Below, piece after piece: positions 8,128-50,041 of a stretch of 64,000 nt of DNA; position 1 is the stretch's first letter, and each line of letters opens with the position of its first letter. The notes beneath the pieces are model-generated. The model had not been told where the DNA came from and made no database searches. It worked only from the letters and a program-made list of their open reading frames with translations. The position numbers and the translations under genes are program-made. The stretch is from positions 107,464 to 171,463 of the forward strand of contig JAGSHD010000011.1 in NCBI GenBank assembly GCA_023954715.1. Direction: 5' to 3'. Origin of the DNA: Candidatus Cloacimonadota bacterium. Lineage in GTDB: Bacteria; Muiribacteriota; UBA6191.

Positions 8128-8418
8128 TTAGTTATGCATCTTTAGCCAGGATAAAATATCAGACTTTTTATATAGAATTTTTCTAGCTGTTTTTTGATAA
8201 GGAACATCAAGAGTTTGGTTTTCTCTCATTTTTTTAAATGTTTTATCGCTGATACCTAAAAGTCTGCAGGCTTGCTTTTGAGTAATAACCTGATCTTCTG
8301 GGTTTACGGCTTCTTCGATTTTTTCAAGTGATCGTTGCAGGCCACCGATAAGACCTTCAATGTAGGTTAGTTTATCTTCTAAGGCGTTTATCTTACGTTC
8401 AATTAGTAATTCGCTCAT
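8128..8418 (-). CDS. Small DNA-binding protein, coiled coil plus excisionase-type HTH
   Basis: The 96-residue product has an N-terminal amphipathic helix with heptad spacing (about residues 1-38), likely for dimerisation. A helix-turn-helix of the HTH_17/excisionase type follows: ITQKQACRLLGISDKTFKKM (about 45-64), with the typical wing and C-terminal KILYKKSDILSWLK. This family includes Xis-type excisionases and small transcription regulators. No integrase or phage gene is nearby, so a regulatory role is more likely than excision. The start is supported by AAGGA eight bases upstream. Palindromes just upstream of the start suggest autoregulation. It lies between two secreted-protein genes on the same strand and has its own terminator. 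Confidence 0.75.
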   Translation of the reverse strand: MSELLIERKINALEDKLTYIEGLIGGLQRSLEKIEEAVNPEDQVITQKQACRLLGISDKTFKKMRENQTLDVPYQKTARKILYKKSDILSWLKMHN

Positions 8419-31122: not shown

Positions 31123-32865
31123 ATGAAAAAAATAGACTTATTCGATGCTCATCTATTTCATTTAGTTGAGCATCACTTAAAAGCAAAAAAGCTTGTATCG
31201 CAAATTTTATTTGTGTTGTTGTTTCTTGTGCTGCTAACAGGATGCAACGAACAAAATCAAACAAAGTTAAGGGTTAGTTTTTCTAATCAAAAAATTCAGC
31301 TGTTGGCTGATCTAAAAGATGCAAATACCTTTCATGGTGAGTTTATCGAAAACTATCGTAGTGGCAAACAAAAAGTTGTAACTCAATTTAAAAATGGTTT
31401 GCTAGATGGTGATTTTACAGTCTATTTCTCAAATGAAGAAATCAAACTAAAGAGATCCTTTGTAAAAGGGGTGTTAGTTGGCGAGTCTTTAGAAAACTAT
31501 CCCGTAGGAAACCCCAAATTTCAAGGAGAGTATTTCCAAGGAAAAAAACATGGAAAACATATTAAATACTTTGAAAATGGTGTAGTTGAATCCAGTACGG
31601 AATTCGACAAAGGACTATTAGATGGAATTTCTGTTGTAAACTTCAAAGAAGGTTATGTAAAAACTTTAAAAAAATATGAACAAGGTCAATTGATCTACGA
31701 AAAAGAGTTTGATTTTCAAGGTATATTAGTTAGTTTCAAAGAAGTAAAAGACAAGAAGCTATTTGATTACAAGATCAAAACAATTCGAAATAATTTCCCC
31801 AAAACAAAAGACAAGTCATGGATGTATGCTGTGGCAACTGCCGGGCCATTTGCAGACAAAAAAGTAGGCTATGAAAAAAAGTGGCATCCAAATTATCAAA
31901 TGAGTGTTGAAAAGAAATGGGATAAAGGTCATTTAATTTATACTAAAAAAATGAACCAACAAGGGGTTTTAATTTATCATCAATTTGAAAAAGATAAATT
32001 AAGACATATTCATACTTGGTATGATAATGGCAAGCAAAAAGAAATCAAATCCTTTGAGGATACAAAACGACATGGAAACTTCAAAAGCTATTATGAAAAT
32101 GGAGTTTTAAAAATTAAAGATCAGTTTCGTCACGGAAAAAGAATTGGATCTTATTTAGAGTATGATGAACAAGGTCAAAAAAGAGTAGAGTTGAATTATG
32201 AGAATGGGCTCAAATCGGGTAGAGCCATTTTATACTATGCAAACTCCAATAAAAAAGAAGATAGAAAGTATAAAGCGGGTAAACTAAATGGACCACAAAC
32301 TCTATATTACTCCAATGGTAAGGTAGAGCAGATTTTATCTTATAAAATGGGTTTAAAAGAGGGAGTTTGGATCTCTTATTATCAGGATACATCAAAAAAG
32401 AGGGCTCAAGTTACTTACAAAAATGACATACAAAATGGTATGGCTTTAAATTACCGTGAAAACGGAAGACTTAAAGATCAAGTAAATTATGTAAATGGTA
32501 AAAAACAAGGAAAATTTGAGAGTTTTGACTCATTAGGAAAACCCCTAGAAACAAGTACTTATCAAATGGATCAACTTCATGGTTTACAAATATTTTACAC
32601 ACCAAACGAAACAGTACTAGAGTCAAGAACCTATAAAATGGGTGTACGCCATGGTTTGTCTCAAAACTTTTATCCTAATGGGCGAGTTTTAAGTAAACAA
32701 ACTTATAGAGAAAACCTGTTGTGGGGTACCAAAGAGATTTTTTATAATAATGGTAGAAAAAAGAAAACTTGCGAATACGTAAAAGGTAAAGAAAGTTTTT
32801 GTAGGTTTTACAAAGCCACTGGTGAAGAGATTTTTGATCCTCAAGAGCAAGCAAAATTAGATTAA
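31123..32865 (+). CDS. Lipoprotein with YwqK/MORN-type repeats
   Basis: This 580-residue protein has about 28 charged residues and then a hydrophobic signal segment ending in a lipobox (LLTGC, Cys41), so it is an exported lipoprotein with an unusually long n-region. The rest is an array of a dozen or so 22-24-residue repeats of the toxin-antitoxin YwqK/MORN_2 type, with recurring YxENGxxKxxxxFKxGxxxGxxxxYYxNG. One interruption (about 205-270) lacks clear repeats. Such repeats form extended beta-sheets and occur in surface and antitoxin-like proteins; no toxin gene is adjacent. No ribosome binding site is visible: the gene starts eight bases after the cyclophilin stop, so coupling is likely. 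An inverted repeat, GATGCTCA / TGAGCATC, lies in codons 8-18. Confidence 0.85.
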   Translation: MKKIDLFDAHLFHLVEHHLKAKKLVSQILFVLLFLVLLTGCNEQNQTKLRVSFSNQKIQLLADLKDANTFHGEFIENYRSGKQKVVTQFKNGLLDGDFTVYFSNEEIKLKRSFVKGVLVGESLENYPVGNPKFQGEYFQGKKHGKHIKYFENGVVESSTEFDKGLLDGISVVNFKEGYVKTLKKYEQGQLIYEKEFDFQGILVSFKEVKDKKLFDYKIKTIRNNFPKTKDKSWMYAVATAGPFADKKVGYEKKWHPNYQMSVEKKWDKGHLIYTKKMNQQGVLIYHQFEKDKLRHIHTWYDNGKQKEIKSFEDTKRHGNFKSYYENGVLKIKDQFRHGKRIGSYLEYDEQGQKRVELNYENGLKSGRAILYYANSNKKEDRKYKAGKLNGPQTLYYSNGKVEQILSYKMGLKEGVWISYYQDTSKKRAQVTYKNDIQNGMALNYRENGRLKDQVNYVNGKKQGKFESFDSLGKPLETSTYQMDQLHGLQIFYTPNETVLESRTYKMGVRHGLSQNFYPNGRVLSKQTYRENLLWGTKEIFYNNGRKKKTCEYVKGKESFCRFYKATGEEIFDPQEQAKLD

Positions 32866-32912
32866 TTATGTAATTTAAAACTGGACAACAGTGATGAGCA
32901 ACTGTAGTAATT

Positions 32913-33668
32913 ATGGTTAAAAAATGTATACTTTTTATTCTGTTGTTCATTGTTTTTGTACCATTAGAGAAGCTGTTCCCGATAAAAAAGCAAAAAGTAT
33001 TTAGAGAGCAGTTTAAAAATGATATGGTTCATTTTTTTATGAATCAAATCTTCATAACTGTAGGCATATTTATTTTTGTGATTCCTTTTTTTATTTTAAG
33101 TAAATTTACGAGTACAGTATTAGCAATCAAGGTTTCGTCTCAACCTCAAATCCTACAGTTGTTTGAAGGAATCATAATCGCAGAGTTCTTTGGATATTGG
33201 ATCCATCGATTGCATCACAAGGTACCGTTTTTATGGAAACTTCATGCGATTCACCATAGTCCAAAAGATTTAGATTGGTTGGCGGCAGTAAGGGTTCATC
33301 CTCTAAATGTCATTTTAAATCGTTTGTTTGCCACGATACCTTTATTATTTTTAGGGTTTTCAAAAGAGTCATTTGGTGGTGCAATCATTTTTATCCAGTT
33401 TTATAGTTTATTTTTTCATGCAAATATTAATATTAGGCTTCATAAGCTTTCTTATTTGATCGGGACACCTGAGTTGCATCGAGTGCATCATAGTAAAGAC
33501 ATAGAAGAGTCCAATTGTAACTTTGGTGGCTTAACGCCAATATTTGATCAAATTTTTGGTACTTTCAAGTTTCCAGATCAATTACCAAAAGAGTATGGAG
33601 TAGAAGAAGACACTCCCACTACCTACATAGCGCAACTAAAATTTCCTTTTCAATCCAAGGATAAGTAG
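32913..33668 (+). CDS. Membrane fatty acid hydroxylase / sterol desaturase family protein
   Basis: This 251-residue membrane protein has about four hydrophobic segments and the histidine boxes of the di-iron fatty acid hydroxylase superfamily: HRLHH, HAIHH followed by DLDWLAAVRVHP, and HANINIRLH and HRVHHS near the C-terminus. Members hydroxylate or desaturate lipids, carotenoids or sterols at the cytoplasmic face of the inner membrane. Substrate cannot be assigned from sequence; bacterial members of this size often act on fatty acyl or isoprenoid lipids. It lies 47 bp after the repeat lipoprotein gene, same strand, and is probably the last gene of the pepP operon. The ribosome binding site is weak. 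Confidence 0.85.
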   Translation: MVKKCILFILLFIVFVPLEKLFPIKKQKVFREQFKNDMVHFFMNQIFITVGIFIFVIPFFILSKFTSTVLAIKVSSQPQILQLFEGIIIAEFFGYWIHRLHHKVPFLWKLHAIHHSPKDLDWLAAVRVHPLNVILNRLFATIPLLFLGFSKESFGGAIIFIQFYSLFFHANINIRLHKLSYLIGTPELHRVHHSKDIEESNCNFGGLTPIFDQIFGTFKFPDQLPKEYGVEEDTPTTYIAQLKFPFQSKDK

Positions 33669-33872
33669 ATAATCTTTTATTCAAATATCTTTGCTTTTTT
33701 GAAACAAATTAAGTTAATGTACGTATAGATTGTTGCTGTAATAAAAAAGCAGCAATTTGTCGTATATTTGTGAAAACGGCTAAGAGTGGGCACTTTCAAG
33801 GTAAAAGCTCGCTGAGTGAATTTAAAGATTATAATATGAACAATTTACAATAAAGTATTCAGGATAAAGTTT

Positions 33873-34853
33873 ATGAAGTTTCTAGTTTTGATGATGTTGG
33901 TATTCAACGCTTTTGCAGTTGAAGGTAATGATAGACAATGGTCTAGCATATACTCACAGTTAAAGTCATCTAATTTTCCTCAAATGGATCCTTATGCAGC
34001 TGAGTATAAAGGAATTGACCCTTTAGTACGCTACCCTGTTGAAAAACAAAACCAAGGCTCTGTCTATTTGGTGGATAATCTTCGTATTAGTAAATTGCAA
34101 GAAGAAATAGGTAAAAAAGATAAAGTAAAGTATGTAAGGGATATTCAGTGGTCGTCGGCTATGATTGATGTCTCAAAGTTACAAAGAGTTAGTGTTGTAT
34201 TTGCAAAAACTCAGATTAACTTGGGTGTGGTAACTCCAAAAACTGGACATGCTCAAATGTTGTTTGAGTTTGGACGTGGAGGCGTAGTAACCAAAGAGGG
34301 TTTTGTTGATACATTAGTCATATCTTATGAAGGAAAAAGAAAAGACGATCAAAACTTTAATCCTTTGGTTGGTTTGTTTAAAGTGTATCCATCGATTTTT
34401 GTTATGAGTACCTTTGAAGATTTATTAGTTAAGATCAGTACTTTTTTTAATGGAATGGAAATCTATGACTTGGATTTGAGTGACTCTCAAAAGAAAGCAT
34501 TGTTAACAAATTATTTAAAAGCGGCTTTGGATACAGAGACATTAAAAAATGAAAGATATCATACAACTAGAAACTCATGTGTAACTAATATGTTTAAATT
34601 GCTTAATTCTGTGTTACCAGAAGGTAAGCAAGTACAAGAGTGGTATCAAGCCTTTGGTTTATACCCAGCAAGAACCCTAGACTCAATTTTACCTGAGCGC
34701 ATGGAAAAGACATTGCGAAAGTTAGACTTAGTAACATTAAAGACCGATATATTTGGCAAAGAGAAATTGCGAGAGTATTACTACGGATTAGTAGAGGTAC
34801 AAAAGAGATATATAAAATCTCCTAGAATTTTTCAAATGATGTATAAAGATTAA
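33873..34853 (+). CDS. Secreted DUF4105-like protein
   Basis: This 326-residue protein has a short signal peptide (MKFLVLMMLVFNAFA) after an AGGATAAA ribosome binding site. The central part (about 100-230) contains GHAQMLFEFG and a later RYHTTRNSCVTNMFKLLN segment. These resemble the His and Asn-Cys regions of DUF4105/Lnb N-terminal periplasmic domains, a group with a permuted papain-like (NlpC/P60-related) appearance. If that is right, Cys in NSCVT would be the nucleophile and His in TGHAQ its partner. The function remains unknown. It is a single gene with a clear terminator. Confidence 0.6.
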   Translation: MKFLVLMMLVFNAFAVEGNDRQWSSIYSQLKSSNFPQMDPYAAEYKGIDPLVRYPVEKQNQGSVYLVDNLRISKLQEEIGKKDKVKYVRDIQWSSAMIDVSKLQRVSVVFAKTQINLGVVTPKTGHAQMLFEFGRGGVVTKEGFVDTLVISYEGKRKDDQNFNPLVGLFKVYPSIFVMSTFEDLLVKISTFFNGMEIYDLDLSDSQKKALLTNYLKAALDTETLKNERYHTTRNSCVTNMFKLLNSVLPEGKQVQEWYQAFGLYPARTLDSILPERMEKTLRKLDLVTLKTDIFGKEKLREYYYGLVEVQKRYIKSPRIFQMMYKD

Positions 34854-34875
34854 AATTATTCATCAAGCAGATATT

Positions 34876-34905
34876 GAGGTCCACAAATTGGGCCTCTTTT
34901 TTTTT
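34876..34905 (+). terminator. Terminator of the DUF4105-like gene
   Basis: GAGGTCC / GGGCCTC form a 7-bp stem with one G-T pair and a 7-base loop, followed by nine T residues, about 20 bp after the stop codon. Confidence 0.85.
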
Positions 34906-34935
34906 GGGCTTAAAAAAATGAAATTATTACTTAGA

Positions 34936-34954
34936 CTTTGGTAAAAGACCAAAG
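34936..34954 (+). promoter_or_regulatory. Perfect hairpin just upstream of the ABC exporter ribosome binding site
   Basis: CTTTGGT / ACCAAAG form a perfect 7-bp stem with an AAAAG loop, ending four bases before the GGAG of the first ABC gene. It could be a repressor operator or an mRNA structure affecting initiation. The position is seen; the function is inferred. Confidence 0.4.
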
Positions 34955-34967
34955 CTATGGAGAAAAT

Positions 34968-36722
34968 ATGAAAACTATAAAATTATTTATAGAGCAATTT
35001 AGTTTAATAAAGAGGCTTTTGCCATACATTCAAAAGCACAAAACAAAGTATTTTGCTGCTTTGCTTTTGTCTTTGGCTTTAACAGTGGTGAGTATCTCAA
35101 AACCATTGATTTTAAAGCTGATTATTGATGAAGCTGTACAGGCAAAGTCAGAAAGCACTTTAATAGCATATTCAGCTTTGTTTGTATTGATGTTGTGTAT
35201 TGGGGTTTTTGGTGGTTACAAGCAATTGGTATTAATGTCTGAGTTTGGCATAGATATGATTAACTCTGTCAAAAGAGATCTCTTTGATCACATATTGAAA
35301 CTCGGATTGCGATTTTTTAACAAACATCAGGTTGGTTGGATCATGTCTCGTATCGAAAGTGATACAGAAGAGTTAAAAAACTTTTGTTCTAGGTTAACGA
35401 TTCACTTATTGATGGATATTTTGAGTTTTGTGGGTGTGTTTTGCATTATGTTTTATTATGATCAGCAGATCGCTGGCATGATTGCTTGTGTATGTGCAGC
35501 TTTATTTTTCATGGTTTTGTTTTTTATAAACTATATGAAGAAAATCTATAATAAAGCTCGTTCTGCTTATGCAACATTGAGTGGTTTTATTGCTGAATAT
35601 GTATGTGCCATTGAAATTATTCAAATGTACGATCAAAAAGAGAAATTAAAGCAATTGTTATCCCAAGTTACTAAGGATCGATATGATATCGAGTTACACT
35701 CTCAAAAACTTGAAAATGGTTTTTGGGGACTGTTTCGATTTTTTACAGAGAGTCTTTTGATTATCATTATCTTATGGGTTGGAATCCCTCAGTTGATGGC
35801 TAAGACCATGTCTCTTGGTAAACTGATTATGTTTTTGGAGTTTTCTGTACAGATGACTCGTCCATTGTTTGCTGTAAGTGAAAACTTTAACAATATCCAA
35901 AGAGCTCTTGTTTCTTTAACACGAGTTTGTGGCTTATTGGACGAGAAACCAGACGTAGATACTGGTGAAAAATTAGAGCAAGCGTTTCATTCTACAATTG
36001 AGTTTAAGGGAGTCGACTTTTTTTACAATGAAGATAAAAAGGTTTTAAAAAACGTAAACTTTAGTATCAACAAAGGAGAAAAGATCGCCTTGGTAGGTCC
36101 ATCGGGTGGTGGTAAGTCTACTATTGCAAGTCTACTCTGTCGGTTTTATGATCCCACCATCGGTGATGTATTGGTTGATGGTAAAAAGTTGAGTGACATT
36201 CATGTTAGCTCCTGGAGAGCGCAATTGGGACTTGTTTTACAAGATGTATTTTTGTTTGGTGGAACCATATTAGATAATTTAAGAGTGTTGGATGATAGTT
36301 TTGAAGTATCCAAGGTGGTTGATGCAGCAAAAAACTTAGGAGCTGACTCTTTTATTTCAAACTTGCCTAATGGATATGAAACAGAGCTAAAAGAAAAAGG
36401 AAAAAACCTCTCTCAAGGAGAGAAGCAATTATTGAGTTTTTCACGAGCCATGACTTTTAATCCTGAGATCTTGGTTTTGGATGAAGCTACTGCTTCTATA
36501 GACCCTCATACTGAGTATTTAATCCAAAAAGGTCTAGATACCCTACTTGAGGGTAGGACGGCTTTAATTATTGCTCATCGATTATCGACTATTAAAAATG
36601 TGGATAAAATTTTGTTTGTTGAAAACGGTGAGATTATTGAGCAAGGCAGTCACATAGAGTTGATTGCACAAAAAGGTAGATATTTTGACATGTTGAATTT
36701 ACAGCTTCAGCAATCAGCATAG
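34968..36722 (+). CDS. ABC exporter half-transporter, catalytic Walker B but altered signature
   Basis: The start at ATG 34968 follows GGAG; an upstream GTG would fall in the hairpin. The 584-residue protein has a six-helix ABC type-1 exporter membrane domain (about 30-315) and an ATPase domain with Walker A GPSGGGKST (377-385), Walker B LVLDE (Glu506 present) and switch His537 in AHRLST. Its signature motif is LSQGE (481-485) instead of LSGGQ. With the next gene, nine bases downstream, it should form a heterodimer of the BmrCD/TM287-288/LmrCD type, exporting drugs, lipids or peptides across the inner membrane using ATP. It supplies the intact Walker B for the active site and the altered signature for the inactive one. 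Confidence 0.9.
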   Translation: MKTIKLFIEQFSLIKRLLPYIQKHKTKYFAALLLSLALTVVSISKPLILKLIIDEAVQAKSESTLIAYSALFVLMLCIGVFGGYKQLVLMSEFGIDMINSVKRDLFDHILKLGLRFFNKHQVGWIMSRIESDTEELKNFCSRLTIHLLMDILSFVGVFCIMFYYDQQIAGMIACVCAALFFMVLFFINYMKKIYNKARSAYATLSGFIAEYVCAIEIIQMYDQKEKLKQLLSQVTKDRYDIELHSQKLENGFWGLFRFFTESLLIIIILWVGIPQLMAKTMSLGKLIMFLEFSVQMTRPLFAVSENFNNIQRALVSLTRVCGLLDEKPDVDTGEKLEQAFHSTIEFKGVDFFYNEDKKVLKNVNFSINKGEKIALVGPSGGGKSTIASLLCRFYDPTIGDVLVDGKKLSDIHVSSWRAQLGLVLQDVFLFGGTILDNLRVLDDSFEVSKVVDAAKNLGADSFISNLPNGYETELKEKGKNLSQGEKQLLSFSRAMTFNPEILVLDEATASIDPHTEYLIQKGLDTLLEGRTALIIAHRLSTIKNVDKILFVENGEIIEQGSHIELIAQKGRYFDMLNLQLQQSA

Positions 36723-36731
36723 GATAAAATT

Positions 36732-38480
36732 ATGAAATCAAATATATTATTTTCGAAATTTCATTGGCAATGGATTTCAAATATCTGGAAAAGGCATTTA
36801 CCCTTTGCTTTATTGTTAGTTTTTTTGACAATATTATCAACGGTATCCTCATTATTATTTCCGTTATTTTTTAAATACCTAATTAATGAGTTACAGAAAA
36901 ATGCTACCTCATTACAATTAGATGAGTTTCGCTTGCAAATGATTGGTCTACTGTTAGTTATGGGATTATTACAATTGTCTGCTGCAAGTTATCCTTATTT
37001 TCGAGCAAAGATGAACCTAATCATTGATTGGGAAGTGAGAGAAAAGTACTTTCATTTATTGCTAGAGCAAAATCAAGAGTTTTTAAGCCACTTTAAAACA
37101 GGAGACTTGATCACAAGGTTGACCGATGATATCGCAAGGTTTCCTAAAATTTCATGGTTTTGTTGCTCTGGTATTTTTCGAGCCTTTAACTCTTTATCTA
37201 TTGTTGTCTTTTGCATTGGTGTAATGACTTATTTAAACTGGAAGTTGGCTCTGTGTACGTTGCTTCCATTGCCTTTTGCCTTGTGGGTTTATACTACCTT
37301 GGCTTCTAAATTAGATGAGGGGTATAAAGCTTCACAAAAAGCTATTAGTGAAACAAATAATCATTTGGAGTCTTGTTTATCTGGGATCAAGATATTAATG
37401 GCTTTCAATGGAGAAAAAAGAGAAGTAAATCGTTTTGAAAGAATTTTAGATGATCGTTACCATGCAGAGTTTAATATTACAAAACTTTCTGGAAAAATGG
37501 GCTTGTTTTACGAGTTTATTGGTCATTTTGGGCAGGTTATTGTGGTTTTAGTTGGTGGTTTGATGGTTGTTCGGGGTGAGTTAAGTTTAGGGGACTATTA
37601 TGCATTTTTTTCTTATCTAGGAATCATTGTGTACCCAATGCTAGATATACCCCATTTATTTGTTACATCAAGACAGGCTTTTGTATGTATTGATCGTTTA
37701 GAGGCTCTCAATCAAAAAGCTGAGGATGTGAATCAAGAGGTGACAGAAAAATCTCATGTAATGAGCGAGTTTGAGCATTTGGAGCTAAGAAATGTTTCTT
37801 TTTCTTATGAAGAGCAAAGTGTTTTAGATAATATTACTTTTTCTGTGAAAAAAGGTCAGATCGTAGCAATTGTTGGTAAGATTGGCTCCGGAAAATCCAC
37901 TCTCCTACAATTGATTGCGGGTACACATAAGGCTGGTTTTGGGGATGTTCGATTTAATGGAGTATCTAGAAAAGACATCAATGAAAAATCTTTAAGAAAG
38001 TCCATGGCTTTTGTAGCACAAGAACCAACAATTTTCTCAGAAACAGTAGAAGAAAATATTCGATTTTTTCGAGAGTACACTCCAGAGCAGATCAAGACCT
38101 CTGCTGGTTTGTCTCAAGTGAAAGATGAAATGGATTTATTGCCTAATGGATTCTTGGAGAAATTAGGGCAAAATGGAGTAAATATATCTGGGGGGCAAAA
38201 GCAAAGGCTTACTATTGCAAGAGCATTGCTAGGTAAACCGGGTTTGCTTTTAATGGATGATGTAACCGCAGCATTAGATGCTGAAAATGAGAAATTATTT
38301 TGGGGGGATTTAAAAAATCATTTAGATGATGCAGCTATTGTAGTAGTAACCCATCGAATGGCAACAGCAAGACAAGCTCATAAGGTGATTTATTTAGATG
38401 AAGGAAAAATAAAAGCTCAAGGAACTTTTGAAGATTTAAAAGAAAGATCACAAGACTTTCGTGAAATGATTAATGAATAG
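36732..38480 (+). CDS. ABC exporter half-transporter with degenerate Walker B
   Basis: This 582-residue protein has a six-helix exporter membrane domain (about 25-320) and an ATPase domain with Walker A GKIGSGKST (382-390), a normal signature ISGGQ (485-489) and switch His541. Its Walker B ends in Asp-Asp (LLLMDD, 509-510), so the catalytic Glu is replaced by Asp. In heterodimeric exporters such as TM287/288 and BmrCD the same change, paired with an altered signature in the partner, marks the non-hydrolytic nucleotide site. The gene follows its partner by nine bases with AGGATAA upstream. A G6-CAA sequence at 38190 is read without a frame change. Confidence 0.9.
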   Translation: MKSNILFSKFHWQWISNIWKRHLPFALLLVFLTILSTVSSLLFPLFFKYLINELQKNATSLQLDEFRLQMIGLLLVMGLLQLSAASYPYFRAKMNLIIDWEVREKYFHLLLEQNQEFLSHFKTGDLITRLTDDIARFPKISWFCCSGIFRAFNSLSIVVFCIGVMTYLNWKLALCTLLPLPFALWVYTTLASKLDEGYKASQKAISETNNHLESCLSGIKILMAFNGEKREVNRFERILDDRYHAEFNITKLSGKMGLFYEFIGHFGQVIVVLVGGLMVVRGELSLGDYYAFFSYLGIIVYPMLDIPHLFVTSRQAFVCIDRLEALNQKAEDVNQEVTEKSHVMSEFEHLELRNVSFSYEEQSVLDNITFSVKKGQIVAIVGKIGSGKSTLLQLIAGTHKAGFGDVRFNGVSRKDINEKSLRKSMAFVAQEPTIFSETVEENIRFFREYTPEQIKTSAGLSQVKDEMDLLPNGFLEKLGQNGVNISGGQKQRLTIARALLGKPGLLLMDDVTAALDAENEKLFWGDLKNHLDDAAIVVVTHRMATARQAHKVIYLDEGKIKAQGTFEDLKERSQDFREMINE

Positions 38481-38501
38481 TCTTATGTTTAGATCGTAAT
38501 A

Positions 38502-38530
38502 TTGTAATATTAGATTATTAGGAGTAGAAT
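38502..38530 (+). promoter_or_regulatory. Candidate promoter of the chemoreceptor gene
   Basis: TTGTAA (38502-38507), a 17-base spacer and TAGAAT (38525-38530), 36 bases before the ATG at 38566. Confidence 0.5.
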
Positions 38531-38565
38531 TAAGTACTTAATATTTTTTACTTCAGGGGATCTAT

Positions 38566-40971
38566 ATGTTTACCAATATGACGATCAGACAAAGACTTTT
38601 AGTTATATTAGCAGCACCTTTTTTTGGGGTGCTGTTTTTTTCTGGCAAAATGATTTTGGACAGTAGACAAGTCTACTTGAAAACAAGTCATTTTGACTCA
38701 TATTTTAAAGTTATGGTTTCCTCATACAATTTAGTGCATGAGATTCAAAAAGAAAGAGGACTATCAGCTGTTTATCTGGGTAAGGTAAACGACACATCTA
38801 AGCAAAACCTGAAAAGGCAACAAAAACTTACAAATACTAAGTTAAGACTGTATCAAAAACTAACACACGAAAACAAGTTAAAAGGCTTTCCTGAGGACTT
38901 GTTAGGATCAATAAAAATATCTCAAAAGCATTTAGATCATATACAAAAAACTAGGGTTGGGATTATTGAAAACTCTATCAAAATCGATCAAGCTATCGGG
39001 TATTTTTCTAAGGCAAATGAGTATTTATTGAACAATGGTAAGCTATTGTCGCGGCATGCAATCTCTTCAAAAATTGGTCGCAATTTGTTTTCTATAAACT
39101 TTTTACAACAAGCAAAAGAAAAGTCCGGTACAATTCGGGCCAAAATCGCTGGTGGATTAGCTAAAAACCACTTTTCTTTTACATTGATGGAAGAAATTAT
39201 TCAACTTCTAAATGTAGAAAACTCCAATATTTTGAACTTTCAAAATACGCTTCAAGGTCAATCACAAAATAACTTTGAAGGAGTCATGAAACAAGAGTCC
39301 TTTCAAGTTGTTCGTGATTTATCTAATCGTATGCGAAAAAGACAAGCTCGAATAGAATATGCCAATGATGTTTCAAGAATCGTGGGATATGGTGGTGTGA
39401 TTCATTTGTTTAAAAATTATGTATTGAGAGGCACAGAAAAGTATAGAGAACGCTTTACAAATAATATTTCTCAGTTAAACGACTTGATAAAAGATTATAG
39501 AGCTCACGGTAATATAGAAAAAGACGAGATTGAGGCTTTAGACAAAATTGAAGGTGTATTTAACAAATATGATGATGCAGTTAGTGAGATCCAGCAAATG
39601 TTCAAAGATGGGCTATCTATTAAAGAGGTGGATCAAAAGATTAAAATTAATGATACTCCCGCATTAGAAGGTGTGCGTACCTTATTTAGTATTTCATTTG
39701 ATTTAGATGCAATGACATGGTTTAAGCATTCTACAGCACGGATCGAATCATTAAATGACTTCAGTGATGAGATCGTTTCTGATCTAGAAATTGATGAAGT
39801 GAGGGTTATTAAAGAAAGCTATCAAAATATTGTTAGTGCTTCTATTGTGATTAGTTTGTTTATTATATTATGTATTTATCTTGCTTGGACTAACTCTAAA
39901 ATTATTACTTCAAGTTTACAATCTATTTTAGATATGATAGGTGAATTTACTCAGGGTAACTTAGATTATCGAGTTCATTTTAGATTAAATAATGAAATTA
40001 CAACCGTTGGACGGGCTATAAATACTTTATTAGACACTCTTCAAAAGGAGATATTTCCAGCATTCGATAGTTTAGCAGAGGGTGACTTAACATATTCTAC
40101 TGACAATATCATTGTTAAAGAGCGTATTGAAAATACAAATATTCGTATGGCAAATGTTATATCTTTAGTGAAAGATACCTCTGATGATATTTTTTATCAG
40201 GGGCAGGAGATTACTAGCTCTTCACAAAGTATACTAGATTCATCGGTAGATCAAGCAGCAGCACTAGAGCAAATTTCAGCATCCATCGAAGAAATTGTTC
40301 ATAGTAATAAGTTAAATCAAGAATCTTTTCAAGAAGTAAGAGAGTTGGCTATGGACTCGAAAGGGTCAGCTAAAAAGGGTAATGATCAAATGGCAGAAAT
40401 GGCTCTTGCCATTCGAGAGATCCAGGACTCCTCCCAATCCATTGCTAAAATGGTGAAACTGATTGATGATATTTCTTTTCAAACCAATTTATTAGCCTTA
40501 AATGCAGCTGTTGAAGCAGCAAGAGCGGGAGCACACGGAAAAGGTTTTGCTGTAGTAGCAGAAGAAGTGAGAAACTTAGCCCAACGAAGTGCAAAAGCTT
40601 CGGGTGAGATTTCAGATGTAGTAGAAAATTCAATTTCAAAAATTAATCGTGGGATTTCTTTAGTGGAACAAACAGAAAATAGTTTAACTGAGATTAATGA
40701 ACACTCCATTAATCTAGAAAACTTGATTCAAGAGATTGCTGAAAAAAATGAGCATCAACTATCATCTAGTAATGAAGTTAAAATTTCGATTTTGCAAGTG
40801 ACGGATTTATCAGAAAGATCAACAGCTAGTTCTCAACAAAGTACAGTAGCCATAAAAGATTTAATGAATAAATCTGGGGAGCTTACAAACCTTGTTCAAG
40901 CTTTCACTTTATCAGAAGACAATGGTTCAAATAGCTTACCAGGACCCAATACGAAGCTACTGAACAGTTAA
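38566..40971 (+). CDS. Methyl-accepting chemotaxis protein with NIT sensor domain
   Basis: This 801-residue receptor has a first membrane helix (about 9-27) and a periplasmic region of about 390 residues. That region matches the NIT (nitrate- and nitrite-sensing) domain, with the typical [16 protein letters not shown] at its start (56-71). A second membrane helix lies at about 423-441, followed by a HAMP domain (about 445-500) and a methyl-accepting signalling domain with the highly conserved hairpin tip ([18 protein letters not shown] ... [18 protein letters not shown], about 630-670). It should signal to CheA/CheW. The NIT ligand is not certain: nitrate/nitrite was shown for NasR and proposed for others. 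It is a single gene; no che genes are in the window. AGGGGATCT precedes the start. Confidence 0.93.
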
Positions 40972-41097: not shown

Positions 41098-44000
41098 CTA
41101 TTCGTCGCTCTTTTTATTATTAATGTACCCCAAGTAAGCTATGATTAACGCTAGATAAAAGTATTGTAAACTCGATGTTACGGTAGATATAAATAAAATA
41201 GCAACTATAGATAAAGCAACTCTAACTTTAAAAAAGGGTAAGCTTAGCTGAAATACGATTGCCACAATAAATAAACAAAGTATAGAGAAGTAATCAACTG
41301 TGTTTGCTTGTTTTTCTTTTTTCTCTGGAATTTCTTCAAATTGAATGTTGATTTCGGAATCTACTCCGTTTCTAGCGCCAGTGTAGTAGTATCGACCTCT
41401 AGGAAACTGAAAATCAAATGAGTCGGTACTACGTACTCTTTGCACAAAACCATTCATATTATACTTTTGACTAATACGAATAGGGTTTTCATCAGAAAAC
41501 TTATACATGTTTTTATCGGTAGTTAAAGCGAAATACAAGTTTTTAATGTCTGTTTTAAGACGAGGTAGCTTTAAACTAAATTGATCACCACTTTGGCTTA
41601 GTGTAGCCTTGAAAAGTAAGGTAATATTAAAGTTGCGCTGCTTTTTATATTTTTTTAGTGGTAAAAGAAGATTTTTATCGTCCTTTTTTACAATATTTAA
41701 GTGTTTTCCATCAATTAGGGCTTCTTCTAAAACTGTACCGTCTGGTAAGTTAAGCTCTAGGAATTGGCTTTCTTTGTTGCTTAAAGTTAGTACAAGTTTT
41801 TGATAGATTTTGTCTTTGGACAATAGGTAGTTTTCAATTTTATAAGATATACATTGAGTTTTAGAAAAAGAAACAAATGATTTGCTTTTAACCTTCACTT
41901 CAAATTGAGATGTATCGCTTAAGCTTTGAGGAAGGTTTTCAAATTCAAGCACTTTACTTTGGTAGCTTTTTGAAGCTGTTTGAGACAATGAATCTTGCAA
42001 TTTGAATTGTATGTCTTGGCCTTCCTTGCTCTCTTTTTCAAGTTTAAAAATAGTTTCTTTGAACTCTTTTGGTGAGAAAGGAATATAAAATTGAGAGCGA
42101 TCTTGATTTTGAAAGTGGCGATAGGAAACCGTCACTTCAGAATAAGATTTAATTAAATCAATATGCAATTGATTGTCTTTGTAAGAGAGAGAGTAGTCCT
42201 CTCCTTGCTTTAAAGTAGTATATCTATGCTTCACTTGAAACTGAGATAGACTAGCATCCTTTGGTAGCCGTAATTGAAAACTATCTTTGTTTGATAATCT
42301 AACAAAATTTTTAACAATTAAATAAGGAGTGGCAAAGGATATTTTTTGGCTGAAATGGATTTTTGATTTACTAGACTTTGTAACTCTACTATTCACATAT
42401 CTTTTATAGCTTTTTTGTTTTTGAACTGATTTAACCTTTTCTACCTTAAAAGGATATTTACTGAAGTGGATAGATGTCTTTGTCTTTTTAGAGGATAAAT
42501 AATGTTGTTGGTTTTGTTTGATAGCATTGGAGACTTTCAGGTAGTATTGATCTTTTTTGTAGTCTAGAGTGGTGCTTGATGTAAGGGCCAAAGTAACTTC
42601 ATTATGAAAATCATCTCCGTAGTTTTTAGATATCAGAGGGCTCTCAATTTGAAGATGAATTGATTTTCCTTTAAAGTCCTTTACATATAAATAGGCATAA
42701 CCTTTTTTATACTTTATTTCTAGTTGAATGGCATCACCATTTTGATCAATACACTGACTGATGAGGCTTTTTTTATTGAGCCGAAGTAAATAAAAACTAT
42801 CTTCGTGTTGTTTTGAGATTGCAAAGCTATAAAAGACATTGAGCTTTTTTTCTTTAAAGTTAGGACGAAGTAAAATAGCTTGTGATTCAACTTCAAGTAG
42901 ATTTTTATCTACCTTATTGTTTTTTTGGAGTTTGTTTAACAAATGGTCTTTTACCAAAAGTTGGTTTTCAAACTGAAAGTCATTTTTTTTGAAGTCAAAA
43001 ATAGTGTAGATTTTTTCAGTTTTAGGAGCTTGGATACGATGATTGTGATAATGACTTTGTTGTATGTTTTGGCTCCATACTTCTTTAGAAGCATGATTTG
43101 CTTGTATACAAAGTAAAAGGCTTAATACAACCATGGAGTTTTTACAGATTCTGGCAAAAGAGTTAATAATAATGATTGCCAGTACAAAAAAGAGTGGCTC
43201 TGGTGTCATAAACATAAATTGTCCTGCTGGTGATAAAAGCATGAGTACAGATAAAAATCCCAATAATCCTAGTTTCTGTTTTCTTTCCAAATATAAAAAT
43301 ATAGCAAGATATAAAATGGAGAAAATACTACTAATTAATAAAGTATTGCTTTTTTGAAAGTCCTTTATGGATAATTTAATGAAAACAAGTCCATCAATAG
43401 GCGTGTTTTTACCAAAAGAAATCTTACTAGATAATTTAGGAAACTGTATTTCTACAGGCTTTACTCCACTTTTACGTATCTTTTTATATTTTGATTTTTT
43501 TTCACGTTTAGGTAGACTTTGTTTATATGCTCGAACCGCTTTTTTAGATCGATACCCACGAAGTGAGGAAGATCTTTGGCGAGAGACAGACTCTCGTTTT
43601 TCTTTAAGCATATTTAATTCTTGATTTGCCTTAGAGCGAGACTGACCTGGATAAGGGGGAGCTGGAGGAGCGTAAACATTTTTACGTCCTTTTCTTGGTC
43701 TATATTTATCTTTAGCTCCAATACCCTCAGCAAGACCACCAAAGTCATCACCAAAGCTATCTCCATCAAATGAGCTTGTAATGGACTCTTCTGGCTCAAA
43801 AGCATCAAATTCATCTTCGAAGTCAAGATTGTTTTGATCTGCTTTTATAGCTTGGGATCTTGGGTAGGATCGAAAATTTGAGCTATCTCCTCTAAACTTT
43901 ACAGAATTTCCGATAGGAGAGAGTATAAATAATGGAATAATTATGACCACCCCAATAATAAAAATAGCCAAGCCCCATTTTATTTTGCTAGCAGATTTTT

Positions 44001-45732
44001 TAGTAGTAAAACGATTAAAAATCCATGAAACTATTTTTAAAAAAATGAGCAGAGCAAGTAACGGAACAAAAATCACTACAATACACTCAAAAGTAGAAGA
44101 TGTGGATTTGAAGAACTTTCTTAAGACAAAGTTTGCATAATTTTTTATGAGACCTTGATCTTGTATTTTTTTATAACTTAAATTGGAGCCGATTGCTTGG
44201 ATGTTAAGGGCTTTTGGGTAATAAAAGTTCCAACGGGTTCTTAGACTCTCTTCTTTGGTTGGCATATATAAAGATAACTGATGGTCCTTATCTAGAGTTT
44301 CAAGAGTTTTAATGGCAATGGTTAAGCGCTTGTCTTTTGGTAAGTTAATAGCGATTTGAGCTTTGTCATTTCGAAACGGTTTTACTGGTTTATTATTGAT
44401 ATAAGACCCCAAAAACTGTACCTGAGGTGGTATATCAAAAACAAAGTTAGATGCTCCTAAATTGAGTACTTTAAAGCTATAGGAGTTAGCCAAGCGAAAC
44501 TCTTCTGTTAAAATAGAAGATACAGTAGTGTCTAAGACTTTTAATTGAGAGGACTTTTGTTGGGCAAAGGTTTTACTTTTTAATTGAATTTTACCTAATC
44601 GCTTATGAAACTCAAAACTCTTTAGAATTGGTAAATTATAATTGTCCAAGCTTTGATCTTTTAGATAAGGCAGTTTAACTAAATTTACATTTTCAATGGA
44701 ATTGATTTTTACATTTTCACTAGATATAAAATATAAAACTCCTTTAAAGAGACTGGCGTCTATTAAATGAGGGAGAGAAAAGCCATCAACTAATTGCTTT
44801 TTAGGGATACTTTGAATAAAGTTTAGGTTGATTTGCCCCATAAAGCCATCAGGAAAGATGATTTGTTTACTGTCGAAATTAAACGGTATACTTGGTTCAA
44901 AACTCAATCTCTTTAGCTGTAGATCTTTAGAAAAGCTATGCTTTAAAGAGTATATTTTTTGATGTAATACATTAATATTTAGTTTGCCTTGTATGACAAT
45001 TTCGTTTTTCTTAACATCTACTTGATATAGAGGTTTACTCAAAATGGAAGCTTTTAAACCACTAATTTTTACGGGGGCCATTACTTCTACTTTTGGTTGG
45101 ATTGGATCCACTTTTTTTGGTGTAGTAGACTTGATAAGGGTGTTTGAAATTTGAAGTGCATTTAGGCCACCACAATAAAATATATCCTCACTTTGTAGAT
45201 CGATAAACTGCTTTTTATTGTATGGATTTTGCAGGGTAAACTGATCTCCACCAATTACTTTGACTTGGGTAAGTGCAACGGGAGGCAAGTCAAAATAACC
45301 AGGAGATTCAATTAAAAAGCTCACTTGACCTTTCATTTTTTGACTTAAAGGAATCTTAAAGTGTTTAGAGTCTGTCTCAACATTTTGTAAGGATGAGTTA
45401 TTAGTTAAAACCCAAGAACGAGGGACTAATGCTAGAGATTGATTGGGATCAAACGTGGAGTAAGATAGATCCCAAACAAAGGTACCTTCAAATACGTTTT
45501 GCTCTGTCTTTTTTAAGGTTAGACTATACTTTGCAGATTGTATTTTTTGACTTTGAACTTGTTGATTATATTGATCGAGAAGTTTTTGAAACTCAACTTG
45601 AGATATCAATTGATGGTTAGAAAAGTGACTTTGAGACACATCTAATGGAAGTAATGTTGGCAAGACATTGAGTTTATTAGCAAAATTGAATGATAAAGTA
45701 ACTAAAAATATAAGAGTAGATAGAAATTTCAT
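41098..45732 (-). CDS. Giant membrane protein A, paralogue of the upstream gene; unknown function
   Basis: The start at ATG 45732 is supported by AAGGAG upstream and a signal peptide (MKFLSTLIFLVTLSFNFA); it lies one base after the stop of the 45734-50041 gene, so the two are translationally coupled. About 1,544 residues. Architecture: exported beta-rich domain 1 (about 25-540); two membrane helices (546-574, 584-606); a linker with an acidic Phe/Asp/Glu stretch (about 634-670), Pro-rich APPAPPYPG and a strongly basic Arg/Lys region (to about 750); a second membrane cluster (794-880); exported beta-rich domain 2 (about 881-1475); and a C-terminal helix cluster ending in NKKSDE. The plan repeats that of its neighbour. 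No known domain or catalytic motif is recognised. A large envelope complex is a reasonable guess. Confidence 0.8.
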   Translation of the reverse strand: MKFLSTLIFLVTLSFNFANKLNVLPTLLPLDVSQSHFSNHQLISQVEFQKLLDQYNQQVQSQKIQSAKYSLTLKKTEQNVFEGTFVWDLSYSTFDPNQSLALVPRSWVLTNNSSLQNVETDSKHFKIPLSQKMKGQVSFLIESPGYFDLPPVALTQVKVIGGDQFTLQNPYNKKQFIDLQSEDIFYCGGLNALQISNTLIKSTTPKKVDPIQPKVEVMAPVKISGLKASILSKPLYQVDVKKNEIVIQGKLNINVLHQKIYSLKHSFSKDLQLKRLSFEPSIPFNFDSKQIIFPDGFMGQINLNFIQSIPKKQLVDGFSLPHLIDASLFKGVLYFISSENVKINSIENVNLVKLPYLKDQSLDNYNLPILKSFEFHKRLGKIQLKSKTFAQQKSSQLKVLDTTVSSILTEEFRLANSYSFKVLNLGASNFVFDIPPQVQFLGSYINNKPVKPFRNDKAQIAINLPKDKRLTIAIKTLETLDKDHQLSLYMPTKEESLRTRWNFYYPKALNIQAIGSNLSYKKIQDQGLIKNYANFVLRKFFKSTSSTFECIVVIFVPLLALLIFLKIVSWIFNRFTTKKSASKIKWGLAIFIIGVVIIIPLFILSPIGNSVKFRGDSSNFRSYPRSQAIKADQNNLDFEDEFDAFEPEESITSSFDGDSFGDDFGGLAEGIGAKDKYRPRKGRKNVYAPPAPPYPGQSRSKANQELNMLKEKRESVSRQRSSSLRGYRSKKAVRAYKQSLPKREKKSKYKKIRKSGVKPVEIQFPKLSSKISFGKNTPIDGLVFIKLSIKDFQKSNTLLISSIFSILYLAIFLYLERKQKLGLLGFLSVLMLLSPAGQFMFMTPEPLFFVLAIIIINSFARICKNSMVVLSLLLCIQANHASKEVWSQNIQQSHYHNHRIQAPKTEKIYTIFDFKKNDFQFENQLLVKDHLLNKLQKNNKVDKNLLEVESQAILLRPNFKEKKLNVFYSFAISKQHEDSFYLLRLNKKSLISQCIDQNGDAIQLEIKYKKGYAYLYVKDFKGKSIHLQIESPLISKNYGDDFHNEVTLALTSSTTLDYKKDQYYLKVSNAIKQNQQHYLSSKKTKTSIHFSKYPFKVEKVKSVQKQKSYKRYVNSRVTKSSKSKIHFSQKISFATPYLIVKNFVRLSNKDSFQLRLPKDASLSQFQVKHRYTTLKQGEDYSLSYKDNQLHIDLIKSYSEVTVSYRHFQNQDRSQFYIPFSPKEFKETIFKLEKESKEGQDIQFKLQDSLSQTASKSYQSKVLEFENLPQSLSDTSQFEVKVKSKSFVSFSKTQCISYKIENYLLSKDKIYQKLVLTLSNKESQFLELNLPDGTVLEEALIDGKHLNIVKKDDKNLLLPLKKYKKQRNFNITLLFKATLSQSGDQFSLKLPRLKTDIKNLYFALTTDKNMYKFSDENPIRISQKYNMNGFVQRVRSTDSFDFQFPRGRYYYTGARNGVDSEINIQFEEIPEKKEKQANTVDYFSILCLFIVAIVFQLSLPFFKVRVALSIVAILFISTVTSSLQYFYLALIIAYLGYINNKKSDE

Positions 45733-45733
45733 T

Positions 45734-48700
45734 TTAGTTCTCCTTCTTTTGGTTAGCATAAAATGATTTAGATATGCTCAGAGCAAGTATCCAAAATACA
45801 GAAAATAAGGTGGCCACTTTGATGGTGTGAAGAGCACTAAAACTTAGAGTATGTTCAAAAGTAATTAAAAGTAAAATATGAAACAGTATCACTCGAAAGC
45901 GTAAAGCCTTGGGGGGAGATTGAAAAATCATCAATAAGTAAAATAATACAAAGAAAAAGAGGCTATAAATGATTTGTTTATTGTCATGTATTTTAGATAA
46001 GGTAAAGCCTTGAGACGGGGACTCTTCATTTGCTTTTTGAAAATATCGGTGTAGGCGAATCGGGTAAAAACTTTTGTACACTGAAAAGTCTACGGGCGCC
46101 TTGGTTGGGTTTTTTATGTTTGTAGCTTGGGGATTTTTTAGAAATTCAGGCTCTTTTTTAAAGTTCCCACGTACAAAGGCACCTTTTTCAAGATCTAACT
46201 TTAAAGGTTCATGTAAAGAAAGCTCATAAAATATTTGGGCACTTGCCAATGAAAAGTTAGGGACTCGTATTTGTCCTTGATTGTCTGAAAGAACTTTTTG
46301 TTTACTTGTGATCTCAAGTAAAAAGGCTTCGATCTCTTTTTTGTTGTTTAATTCCATTCTCATAGGAACAACAACCATATCTTTTTGTTTACCAGCTTGA
46401 ACGATATCTCCGTTGATTCGGGCTGTGATGAGTTGCTCTGTGTCTGATAGTTTGAGGTTAAAAAACTGTTGACCATTGTTTCGGATAGTAAAAGCATATC
46501 GACTAAACAGCCAACCATCCTTTTGTAGATAAGAGTGAACTCGTAAACTATCAACAAAGGCGCTAATAGAGTGAACAATCTGTCTAGGAATAGCTTGAAT
46601 TTTAAACGATTGAGCCTTTGGAGTAGTATCTTTGTGCAAAAGTTGGTGAAAGCTTGGATTAGCTTCACTTTGAAGTTGCGTGGCATTTTTTAAACTAGCG
46701 ATCAGCTCATTACTAGGCAATATGGAAAAAGATAGGTTTTCATTGGCACTAAAATGATAGATATTTTCAAATTGATCGGCTTTTGGATTAAAGAAACTTT
46801 GTAAGTCAGTCGCTTTAGATTTTAAGGGGACTTCCATCTCTAGATCTACATAGAGATTGTTTTTTTGTCCTTGATCATATTTGATCATTAAAATATGCTT
46901 TTTATCATCCACATACCAATCGCTTACTTTTGGTTTACCTTCTAGGTTAACTATTTTGATTTGTTTTGGTAAATGAATCAGAAACTCATCTTGATACGCA
47001 CCTTTCTTTAAAATTTTGGCTTGAGTTTTAATTTGAATATAGTTTTCTTCAATGAGTGCCTTATGATTTAAGGTAAATTGAAGCTTTTCAGGTTCTAACA
47101 CTTGTGTTTTGGTGATTTTATGAGCTTTAACAATAGCTGCTTCTTTTTTTACTTTTGCAAACTTAAAAGTAACTTGTGTTCCTGCTGCCAAATGATATTG
47201 GTAGAGTTTTTTAGTCTCACTTGAATAAACAGAAGACTTGCTACTCAATGAGTATCCTTTAAGCTTTGGAAACTCCAATTTTTGAATCGCTATATACGGT
47301 GTTTGTAAATATAAAGAAAAGTCATAAGGAAAGTCATTACAAACAAAATAGTCTACTTGGATAATAGGGTAATATTGATTGGTATTTAAAACTTGAATGT
47401 TTTGTTGGTCTATATTTTGAATATCTAAAGCTTGTCCATTGATAGAAACCTTTTCAACTAAAAAAGAGTTTTTATTGTTATAGAAGTTTTGATATCTAGG
47501 GATAGTAATCAACGGCTGATTGCTCTGATCTCTTTTTAGATAATAGTCCACTTGCAGTTTAAGTGAGTTGCCTTTTAGATAAAACTTCAAATCACTTCGG
47601 TAAAATTGTGTTTGAGTAGGGTGCTTTACTTCATTAACTGTTTTTGGGTATTGAGATTGCTTGATAAAGCTCAAAGTTTTTTTATTGCTTTTATATTTGT
47701 ATACATCAATAACTTGGGCAAAGTTGGGGCTAAAACAGCTTGCTAGTATAAAAGTTGCAGCAGCAACATTTTTAAAGCCTAAGAGCTTTTTAACTAAGGG
47801 ATAAAAGAGCAAAAATAATGGTCCTATGAGCAAGGAGCTAGATGGAGGCAAAGATCCACTATTTTGAAAAAAGCTAGTTAACAAAATAGCCAAGCACAAA
47901 AATAAAATAGCTTTTATATAGGACTTCTTATAAAAGAAAAAGAAGATTAGGCCTAATACAATCATAAATATAGCGGTGAAAACTGGAGATTGTATAAATG
48001 GTGTACTATCAAAATCTAATTCAATGAAAAATGGTGTTTCTAGACCATGGGGAGAAAATAAATGAGAAAAATTAGTTTCACTTGCCACACTATATATTTT
48101 TTTATGATTTAAACTTGGTGAAAAATCTCCTTGTAAAATAGGGTGGGCTGGAACATTCGATGAAGGAATATCTTGTTGCAAGTGTCCACTATAAAAGGCA
48201 GCAAAAATCGTAAAGGCTACTAGTAACAAGGTAGAAAGGAAAAGCTTTAGTTTAGTTAAAAAGCAATCATGAAAAAAGAGATTGTATCCTAATTGAGATT
48301 CTAAGAGATAGATGAAAGCAGCAAGGATAATTAAAAAAGGTAAAATGTATGGGGTGTAAGTGCCAGCAAAACTCAAAAATTGGCTTAAATCACTCTTATC
48401 TGCTTTAGGAATGGTAGGAAAGTTAGTCTTTAATATTGGGCTTTTAATACTATCATTTGTGATTTCATAGTGGATATTTGTAGTGTCCTGCTCTAGGGGG
48501 ATTTCTAGGCGAAAGTTTTGTTTGTCTTTATTTTTGGTTAAAAACTGAACCTCTAGTTTATGCTGTTTTAAGGTAGCTAATGATTTGGATTGTTGGTTTA
48601 AATTGAGGTAGTTACCTACTTCACTTCTAAATAGGCTAGAGCTAGGCACATCAACAGAAAACTCTCCCTGTTGATTAACATAAGTATGAATCTCCTTACC

Positions 48701-50041
48701 ATTTAGGTGAGCAGATTTTAGATTAATATTTTTAGGAAGCGGGATTACAAAATTACCCGAGTCTTGTTTTTGAATATCAAAGCTCCATTTATGACTAGCA
48801 CTAAGGTCTGGGTTGATTTTTGTATTGCCTAAAAAAGAAGAGATGAGTGTTTCTTTTAAAGGATATTTAGCAAAGGTCTCCGTTTTAATCTGAAATTGAA
48901 GTTTAGCTTCAAAAAAGCGAAATGCATAAAGAATCGGAACTTTTAAATATTGGGTTAAAGATTTAGGTAGTTCTGAGGCATCGATTTTATTAATTGTTTC
49001 AGGAAACTGAAATTGTACTTCGTGAATCTTAACTACATCTTTGGTGAAAAAGGATAGATAACCTCTTTCTTCTTCTAGTTTTTTAAAGTGAATGCCCTCT
49101 GCTTCAAGGTGGCCCATAGTTTTATCTAATTTTAAAGGATAGCTACCATTGATAATAACGGAGATTTTATCTCGTTGTGATGTGTGAAACTTTATTCTGT
49201 CATTTTCTAGTGTATAGCCTGTATGAGGCTTTATTTTTAAGTTGTTTAACTTAAAGTTTTTTGGAATATGGATTTTTAGCTCTTTAATGGGGTTTCTTGA
49301 AATTTTAACTTCTGAATCAAAGGTATAATGGAGGTATTTACGTGACACATTAAATTTGTGTTTAGACTCAGCAAACACAAGTGCTTTTCTAGATTTTTTA
49401 ACAATAACTTTGGGTGGCTTTACGTCCGTTTTGATTTGGGTATTTACTGGAAGGCTTGCTGAAATAGTGATCTTGTTGATATTAGAAAAGGGGGTATATT
49501 GATCCTTCATAGGAAAGGTTCTAACTAATGATGAAGTGAAATAATTAACGTAAGCCGTTAAAAATGACTTATCTTTAGTAAACTTGGCCTCACCAGCGAT
49601 ACTAGAAATCCAGTTTAAGCTAAATTGCCAATGGTTGGATTTTTCAAAAATAGGTAAAAAGGCTTTGATTTTTATTTTTTTTGCTTCATTGGGCTGTATA
49701 TAAAAACCAGAGTTGTCTTGGTATAACGCTAGACTACTACTAATGATTACCCAAGTTTTTGGTAAGACATATAATTTGTCATCTTTTAAATTGAGAGTAA
49801 GATGTAAATTGAGTTGAAGACCTTGTTTTTGAAGATGAAAGTGGGCTTTTTGATGCAAAATACTAGATTGATCTTTTTTTGTTTTCTTTTTAAACAGCTC
49901 ATCTAGTTTATTTTCGTCAACTAAGATGTATTGGCTGGAGTTTCGTTTTAACTCACTCTCCGATAATAGCCTGTTTTTGAACTGCACTGCAAAAGTGCTT
50001 TGAAGAGTTAAGATAAACAATAAAATAGAAGCAATTTTCAT
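45734..50041 (-). CDS. Giant membrane protein B, paralogue of the downstream gene; unknown function
   Basis: This 1,435-residue protein has AGGGG before its ATG and a signal peptide (MKIASILLFILTLQSTFA). A large exported beta-rich domain (about 25-555) has many LxVxLP-type strands. It is followed by two membrane helices (560-617), a four-helix cluster (685-772) whose last helix resembles an internal signal peptide (VAAATFILASCFSPNFAQ), a second exported beta-rich domain (about 780-1345) and three C-terminal helices (1352-1425). The N-terminal regions of this protein and protein A align by eye (a TWVI/SWVL block with similar spacing from the signal peptide), and both have the order signal - domain - helices - domain - helices. 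It lacks the acidic/basic linker of A. The function is not recognised. Confidence 0.8.
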   Translation of the reverse strand: MKIASILLFILTLQSTFAVQFKNRLLSESELKRNSSQYILVDENKLDELFKKKTKKDQSSILHQKAHFHLQKQGLQLNLHLTLNLKDDKLYVLPKTWVIISSSLALYQDNSGFYIQPNEAKKIKIKAFLPIFEKSNHWQFSLNWISSIAGEAKFTKDKSFLTAYVNYFTSSLVRTFPMKDQYTPFSNINKITISASLPVNTQIKTDVKPPKVIVKKSRKALVFAESKHKFNVSRKYLHYTFDSEVKISRNPIKELKIHIPKNFKLNNLKIKPHTGYTLENDRIKFHTSQRDKISVIINGSYPLKLDKTMGHLEAEGIHFKKLEEERGYLSFFTKDVVKIHEVQFQFPETINKIDASELPKSLTQYLKVPILYAFRFFEAKLQFQIKTETFAKYPLKETLISSFLGNTKINPDLSASHKWSFDIQKQDSGNFVIPLPKNINLKSAHLNGKEIHTYVNQQGEFSVDVPSSSLFRSEVGNYLNLNQQSKSLATLKQHKLEVQFLTKNKDKQNFRLEIPLEQDTTNIHYEITNDSIKSPILKTNFPTIPKADKSDLSQFLSFAGTYTPYILPFLIILAAFIYLLESQLGYNLFFHDCFLTKLKLFLSTLLLVAFTIFAAFYSGHLQQDIPSSNVPAHPILQGDFSPSLNHKKIYSVASETNFSHLFSPHGLETPFFIELDFDSTPFIQSPVFTAIFMIVLGLIFFFFYKKSYIKAILFLCLAILLTSFFQNSGSLPPSSSLLIGPLFLLFYPLVKKLLGFKNVAAATFILASCFSPNFAQVIDVYKYKSNKKTLSFIKQSQYPKTVNEVKHPTQTQFYRSDLKFYLKGNSLKLQVDYYLKRDQSNQPLITIPRYQNFYNNKNSFLVEKVSINGQALDIQNIDQQNIQVLNTNQYYPIIQVDYFVCNDFPYDFSLYLQTPYIAIQKLEFPKLKGYSLSSKSSVYSSETKKLYQYHLAAGTQVTFKFAKVKKEAAIVKAHKITKTQVLEPEKLQFTLNHKALIEENYIQIKTQAKILKKGAYQDEFLIHLPKQIKIVNLEGKPKVSDWYVDDKKHILMIKYDQGQKNNLYVDLEMEVPLKSKATDLQSFFNPKADQFENIYHFSANENLSFSILPSNELIASLKNATQLQSEANPSFHQLLHKDTTPKAQSFKIQAIPRQIVHSISAFVDSLRVHSYLQKDGWLFSRYAFTIRNNGQQFFNLKLSDTEQLITARINGDIVQAGKQKDMVVVPMRMELNNKKEIEAFLLEITSKQKVLSDNQGQIRVPNFSLASAQIFYELSLHEPLKLDLEKGAFVRGNFKKEPEFLKNPQATNIKNPTKAPVDFSVYKSFYPIRLHRYFQKANEESPSQGFTLSKIHDNKQIIYSLFFFVLFYLLMIFQSPPKALRFRVILFHILLLITFEHTLSFSALHTIKVATLFSVFWILALSISKSFYANQKKEN

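Follow-up and report, generated by a model that had tools for sequence, protein, structure and literature searches.

The alpha-2-macroglobulins are giant exported proteins made of repeated beta-sandwich domains, and members of this family that are free of the thioester exist. A beta-domain also forms the N-terminal part of the M1 aminopeptidases (Peptidase_M1_N). Also comparable to the locus described here are the giant proteins of the UBP17 / Candidatus Sogexiota lineage and its relatives, which are uncharacterised and usually take the form of a single gene of 1,750-2,190 aa coding for two ectodomains. We analysed a pair of giant membrane-protein genes, A and B, hosted by an uncultured marine bacterium and located in a stretch of 64,000 nucleotides (hereafter the window). 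Like the alpha-2-macroglobulins, their products are giant and exported and contain repeated beta-sandwich modules, but they lack the CxEQ thioester motif and any sequence match to that family, and they bear transmembrane (TM) clusters inside the chain. One of their modules superposes on the N-domains of M1 aminopeptidases with a query TM-score of about 0.5; unlike these enzymes, both proteins lack a Pfam sequence match as well as the HExxH and GxMEN motifs, and their modules are repeated many times within signal-peptide/TM units. With the giants of the phylum they share both the profile and the unit plan, whereas the pseudopilin insert found in some of these giants is absent from A and B.

The gene pair and its domain plan

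Gene A (P0002, 1,435 aa; 45734..50041, minus strand) lies upstream of gene B (P0001, 1,544 aa; 41098..45732, minus strand). Both ORFs were found as described in the original prediction, namely as adjacent minus-strand genes, the stop codon of A being separated from the ATG of B by a single nucleotide. Chance origin of these open frames is excluded by their log10 probabilities of about -47 (A) and -50 (B) at the window GC of 0.34. Orthologues share 63-64% amino acid identity with A and 55% with B (64% and 55%, respectively, in genome G001, which is isolate NORP72, contig NVVD01000001.1), and codon-position bias was seen in both genes. The dN/dS ratios against orthologues, about 0.12 for A and 0.21 for B with dS near saturation, point to purifying selection acting on both. 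A Shine-Dalgarno sequence AAGGAG (45740..45745, minus strand) is found within the last codons of gene A, 7 nt ahead of the ATG of gene B at 45732, and is identical in the NORP72 locus L030. Altogether nineteen junction bases comprising the Shine-Dalgarno sequence, the stop codon and the 1-nt gap, AAGGAGAACTAAAATGAAA, also occur at the A/B junction of the NORP72 orthologues, which represent a second species. The junction therefore displays the sequence pattern of translational coupling. A longer ORF start of B at 45759 is less likely because of the Shine-Dalgarno spacing to 45732 and the conservation of the junction in NORP72.

Hydropathy analysis confirmed that both proteins follow the predicted order of signal peptide, ectodomain 1, TM cluster, signal-like helix, ectodomain 2 and C-terminal TM helices, with 525-545 aa (about 540 aa) for ectodomain 1 and 575-590 aa (roughly 600 aa) for ectodomain 2. 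In A, all features being on the minus strand, the N-terminal signal peptide (MKIASILLFILTLQSTFA; 49988..50041) precedes ectodomain A1 (48356..49978, from profile comparison), a middle TM cluster of five predicted helices (47777..48346), an internal signal-peptide-like helix ending in FILASCFSPNFA/QV (47717..47773), ectodomain A2 with the family motif RNNxxQF (45986..47710), and C-terminal TM helices (45770..45973). The lipobox LASC found within A's internal signal is not conserved in the orthologue and was set aside for that reason. Protein B follows the same plan, likewise on the minus strand, with its N-terminal signal peptide (MKFLSTLIFLVTLSFNFA; 45679..45732), ectodomain B1 (44098..45675, from profile comparison), TM helices 1-2 (43918..44085), TM helices 3-5 (43105..43344), internal signal-peptide-like helix (KNSMVVLSLLLCIQANHA; 43090..43143), ectodomain B2 (41299..43059, from profile comparison) and C-terminal TM helices (41164..41289). 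The loop after TM2 is about 68 aa long in A versus 191 aa in B, where it is of low complexity and basic (43345..43917) and ends with the short motif VKPVEIQFPKL, common to relatives.

The many beta-sandwich modules and the exported domains could suit an adhesive machine at the surface or in the outer membrane, along the lines of the envelope machine or surface complex of the original prediction. Against this, several hydrophobic TM clusters are what would be expected of an inner-membrane protein, a motif scan found no LPxTG, and the organism is probably diderm since it encodes an SLH-porin, the simplest view being that the ectodomains point into the periplasm. We consider an adhesive machine quite improbable.

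Homology of the ectodomains and probable fold of their modules

Profile comparisons support the homology claimed for the four ectodomains. The family profiles of ectodomain 1 and ectodomain 2 align to each other with a probability of 100% (E = 9e-72, hhalign), and A1, A2, B1 and B2 match the family ectodomain profiles with probabilities of 94.4-99.5%, while reversed-profile controls stayed at or below 2%. Ectodomain 1 and ectodomain 2 profiles built without these four sequences match them too. A profile of 28 ectodomains matches all four at E-values from 1.3e-131 (A2) to 3.7e-83, which are optimistic since the four are members of that profile. Direct hhalign comparisons gave 98.5% for A1-B1 and 94.9% for A2-B2, but only 5.8% for A1-A2, 1.0% for A1-B2, 23.5% for A2-B1 and 24.7% for B1-B2; homology is consequently partly transitive, through the family profiles. 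In the ectodomain tree A1 groups with B1 (support 0.986), while the grouping of A2 with B2 is weakly supported (0.394), and long branches may contribute in part to the common grouping of the four. Each ectodomain is monophyletic across two genera (0.978-0.997), hence the four ectodomains probably predate the split of these genera.

Each ectodomain is predicted to consist of some three related beta-sandwich modules in a row; a single module of the whole set was modelled, and the others were recognised by profile. Module 2 compares with module 3 at 81-89% probability and module 1 with module 3 more weakly, at 57-72%; extra tandem copies of the module 2 region occur in two relatives (L114 and L120). 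The second module of A2 (46811..47095, minus strand) was delimited by module profile comparison, and the third (46187..46585, minus strand) was modelled with fair confidence (pLDDT 74.9, pTM 0.72). This model was built from an alignment of third modules only, as an alignment of all 24 modules misplaced strands in the rows of modules 1 and 2. An AlphaFold model of the whole A2 ectodomain (8 rows) was poor (pLDDT 42), so the three-module description relies on profiles. For the structural likeness expected among the four ectodomains, the evidence comes from profiles, the usable model being that of a single module.

A Foldseek search of the A2 module against the PDB gave a best E-value of 1.9e-5 (probability 1.00), and all 50 PDB matches listed were proteins of the M1 aminopeptidase family; the best listed matches are M1 domains and not the MG-domain fold of the macroglobulins. 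What the modelled module shares with the N-terminal beta-domain of M1 aminopeptidases is its likely fold and not its sequence. Against a viral fold library, no match below E = 0.001 was obtained. At the sequence level, searches of Pfam, NCBIfam, PADLOC and PDB returned no significant match for the ectodomains, which upholds for these libraries the claim that no known family is involved; no M1 model of Pfam matched A, B or 28 ectodomains at E-values up to 1. Motif scans were negative for HExxH in A, B and the relatives scanned, and for GxMEN and CxEQ in A and B. The beta-sandwich fold is already known, the family is unnamed in the libraries searched, and none of these databases has a name for the arrangement.

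Splits and fusions of a phylum-wide family

The pair is not singular, being one arrangement of a family found across the phylum: the profile of 28 ectodomains matches in 33 of 40 genomes of the phylum, whose limits may extend beyond UBP17. A match is lacking in, among others, each of the four genomes of one genus, of which two are 95-96% complete, and the family is thus not essential to all. Most commonly it takes the form of a single two-ectodomain gene of the length given above, with the plan signal peptide, ectodomain, TM cluster, ectodomain and TM helices that A and B also follow. Searches of plasmids, with two relatives as queries, and of viral contigs found nothing, and one scan of genome contigs yielded NORP72 as its sole match. 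Similar motifs may also be present in Planctomycetes-type proteins. UBP17, next to a MAG of which NORP72 was placed (PMC9426571), is listed as Candidatus Sogexiota (PMC11382960). It is reported to be one of the phyla richest in novel gene families per genome (PMC10849945), which lends some value to the definition of one of its large families. What is now defined is a large uncharacterised envelope family kept by most genomes of a little-studied phylum.

The last helix of the middle cluster had been proposed to be an internal signal peptide, each protein being a fusion of two signal-plus-domain units. Natural splits support the internal signal and give good support to the fusion, the best being found in a relative of the same class, G007 (L121), in which the unit is broken exactly at the internal signal into overlapping genes of 1,028 and 875 aa, and the latter gene opens with a signal peptide of its own. 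The split in L123 seems to resemble this case, with less clear ORF starts. In the opposite direction, the sister-genus genomes G002 and G003 carry A and B, in the same order, as a single in-frame ORF of 2,791 or 2,801 aa, and a helix equivalent to the signal peptide of B survives within the fusion. Four ectodomains are likewise encoded by ORFs of 3,152 and 3,165 aa in the class relatives G005 and G004. The hetero-oligomer that the original prediction put forward receives indirect support from the A+B fusion in the two sister-genus genomes, the conserved coupled junction and the fact that A and B occur together in 4 of the 4 genomes of the taxonomic family. These fusions suggest an association of A with B.

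We propose, with about even confidence, that A and B are translated together and make up the two halves of a single envelope assembly, whose ectodomains would serve as a periplasmic scaffold or binding array. An ancestral two-ectodomain gene would have arisen by fusion of two signal-ectodomain-TM units, as suggested by ectodomain homology and natural splits, and according to the tree its duplication would have produced four ectodomains before the two genera separated. The set is now encoded by two coupled genes in the window and by a single one in the sister genus. Each ectodomain, with its approximately three M1_N-like modules, would be exported to the periplasm, as the signal peptides and TM pattern suggest, and A and B would associate in the inner membrane, as the fusions suggest. 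Roughly twelve modules would then form a scaffold or binding array devoid of enzymatic activity of its own. The absence of catalytic motifs and the architecture lend weak support to this function.

The internal signals also raise the possibility of a polyprotein, in which signal peptidase I would cut at the internal signal peptides to yield four membrane-anchored ectodomain subunits that subsequently assemble. Such cleavage is possible, the bacterial cytochrome b-c1 (fbcH) precursor, which is cut by signal peptidase, providing a precedent, and in L121 a gene actually begins at the corresponding junction. Relatives often show AxA-type sites just after the internal helix (e.g., LPAFA/QE, LGAQA/QE), although the sites in A (NFA/Q) and B (NHA/S) are non-ideal at position -3. 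By best-site score the internal helices exceeded other TM helices (Mann-Whitney p = 4e-4), but the count of strong sites was only borderline (Fisher p = 0.054); the test used hand-set weights, and its helix finder overlooked the genuine helix of some proteins, those of the window included. On balance we consider processing of this kind unlikely, with a modest chance of being correct. In its general form, one or two polyprotein genes would supply one periplasmic complex with a constant complement of related membrane-anchored ectodomains, two or four in number, fission and fusion altering the packaging and not the product; this we regard as doubtful. The natural splits, duplications and fusions of the unit make the family well suited to testing whether bacterial polyproteins arise via internal signal peptides.

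Gene neighbourhood and inserted domains

A neighbour gene conserved throughout the family was sought and not found, and gene context consequently gives no function. Some relatives have an RCK-type potassium-channel gene upstream of the giant gene and, after it, genes for an M50B protease and a cyclase. The M50B gene directly follows the giant gene in nine loci (L034, L035, L039, L040, L041, L044, L108, L110 and L125), overlapping it by 4 nt in several, and three of these (L035, L039 and L040) also carry the RCK potassium-channel gene upstream and the cyclase gene downstream. Moreover, a small gene overlaps by 4 nt the end of the giants of group f6 (L038:8362-8985, plus strand; L045:14181-14819, plus strand), and its product in L038 contains HELFH, a zinc-protease-like (HExxH) motif. 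Together with the specificity of the fold match for M1 aminopeptidases, these associations would be compatible with a peptide-binding or protease-partner system in which separate metalloproteases act on peptides held by the M1_N-like modules. A fold resemblance at a TM-score of this order does not establish peptide binding, however, and the genome that carries the pair has no M50B match, nor does any peptidase gene adjoin the pair. We view such a system as improbable.

The potassium-channel gene, along with the roughly five TM helices of each middle cluster and the C-terminal helices, could also suggest a transporter or channel whose substrate is gated by the large periplasmic domains. Yet no transporter family was matched, and the channel of the relatives is a separate protein that has no counterpart beside the window pair, which leaves this idea with hardly any likelihood. 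Our preferred reading remains a periplasmic scaffold or binding array.

Some giants contain a GspG-like pseudopilin domain inserted after TM1 (L034, L035, L038, L039, L040, L041 and L045), for instance at residues about 750-869 of the L039 giant (2622-8276, minus strand). In L034, L035 and L039 this domain bears a prepilin-type motif, GFRLxELM, and the giant protein might thus be a substrate of prepilin peptidase. For the window proteins, the idea of a pseudopilin remnant was rejected on E-values of 0.46 and 4.3.

Other genes of the window were recorded. At 13507-15123 (plus strand), a gene codes for an SLH domain together with an alginate-export porin, a combination suggestive of an outer membrane anchored via SLH proteins. 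An ORF of 2,926 aa (15599-24379, plus strand) has a chitobiase C-terminal/Fn3-associated domain as its sole match. Beside the pair, the region 31123-40971 encodes a MORN-repeat protein, an Lnb-domain protein and two ABC exporters, all of them conserved in NORP72. A NIT-domain chemotaxis receptor is encoded at 38566-40971 in the window and does not adjoin the pair in NORP72.
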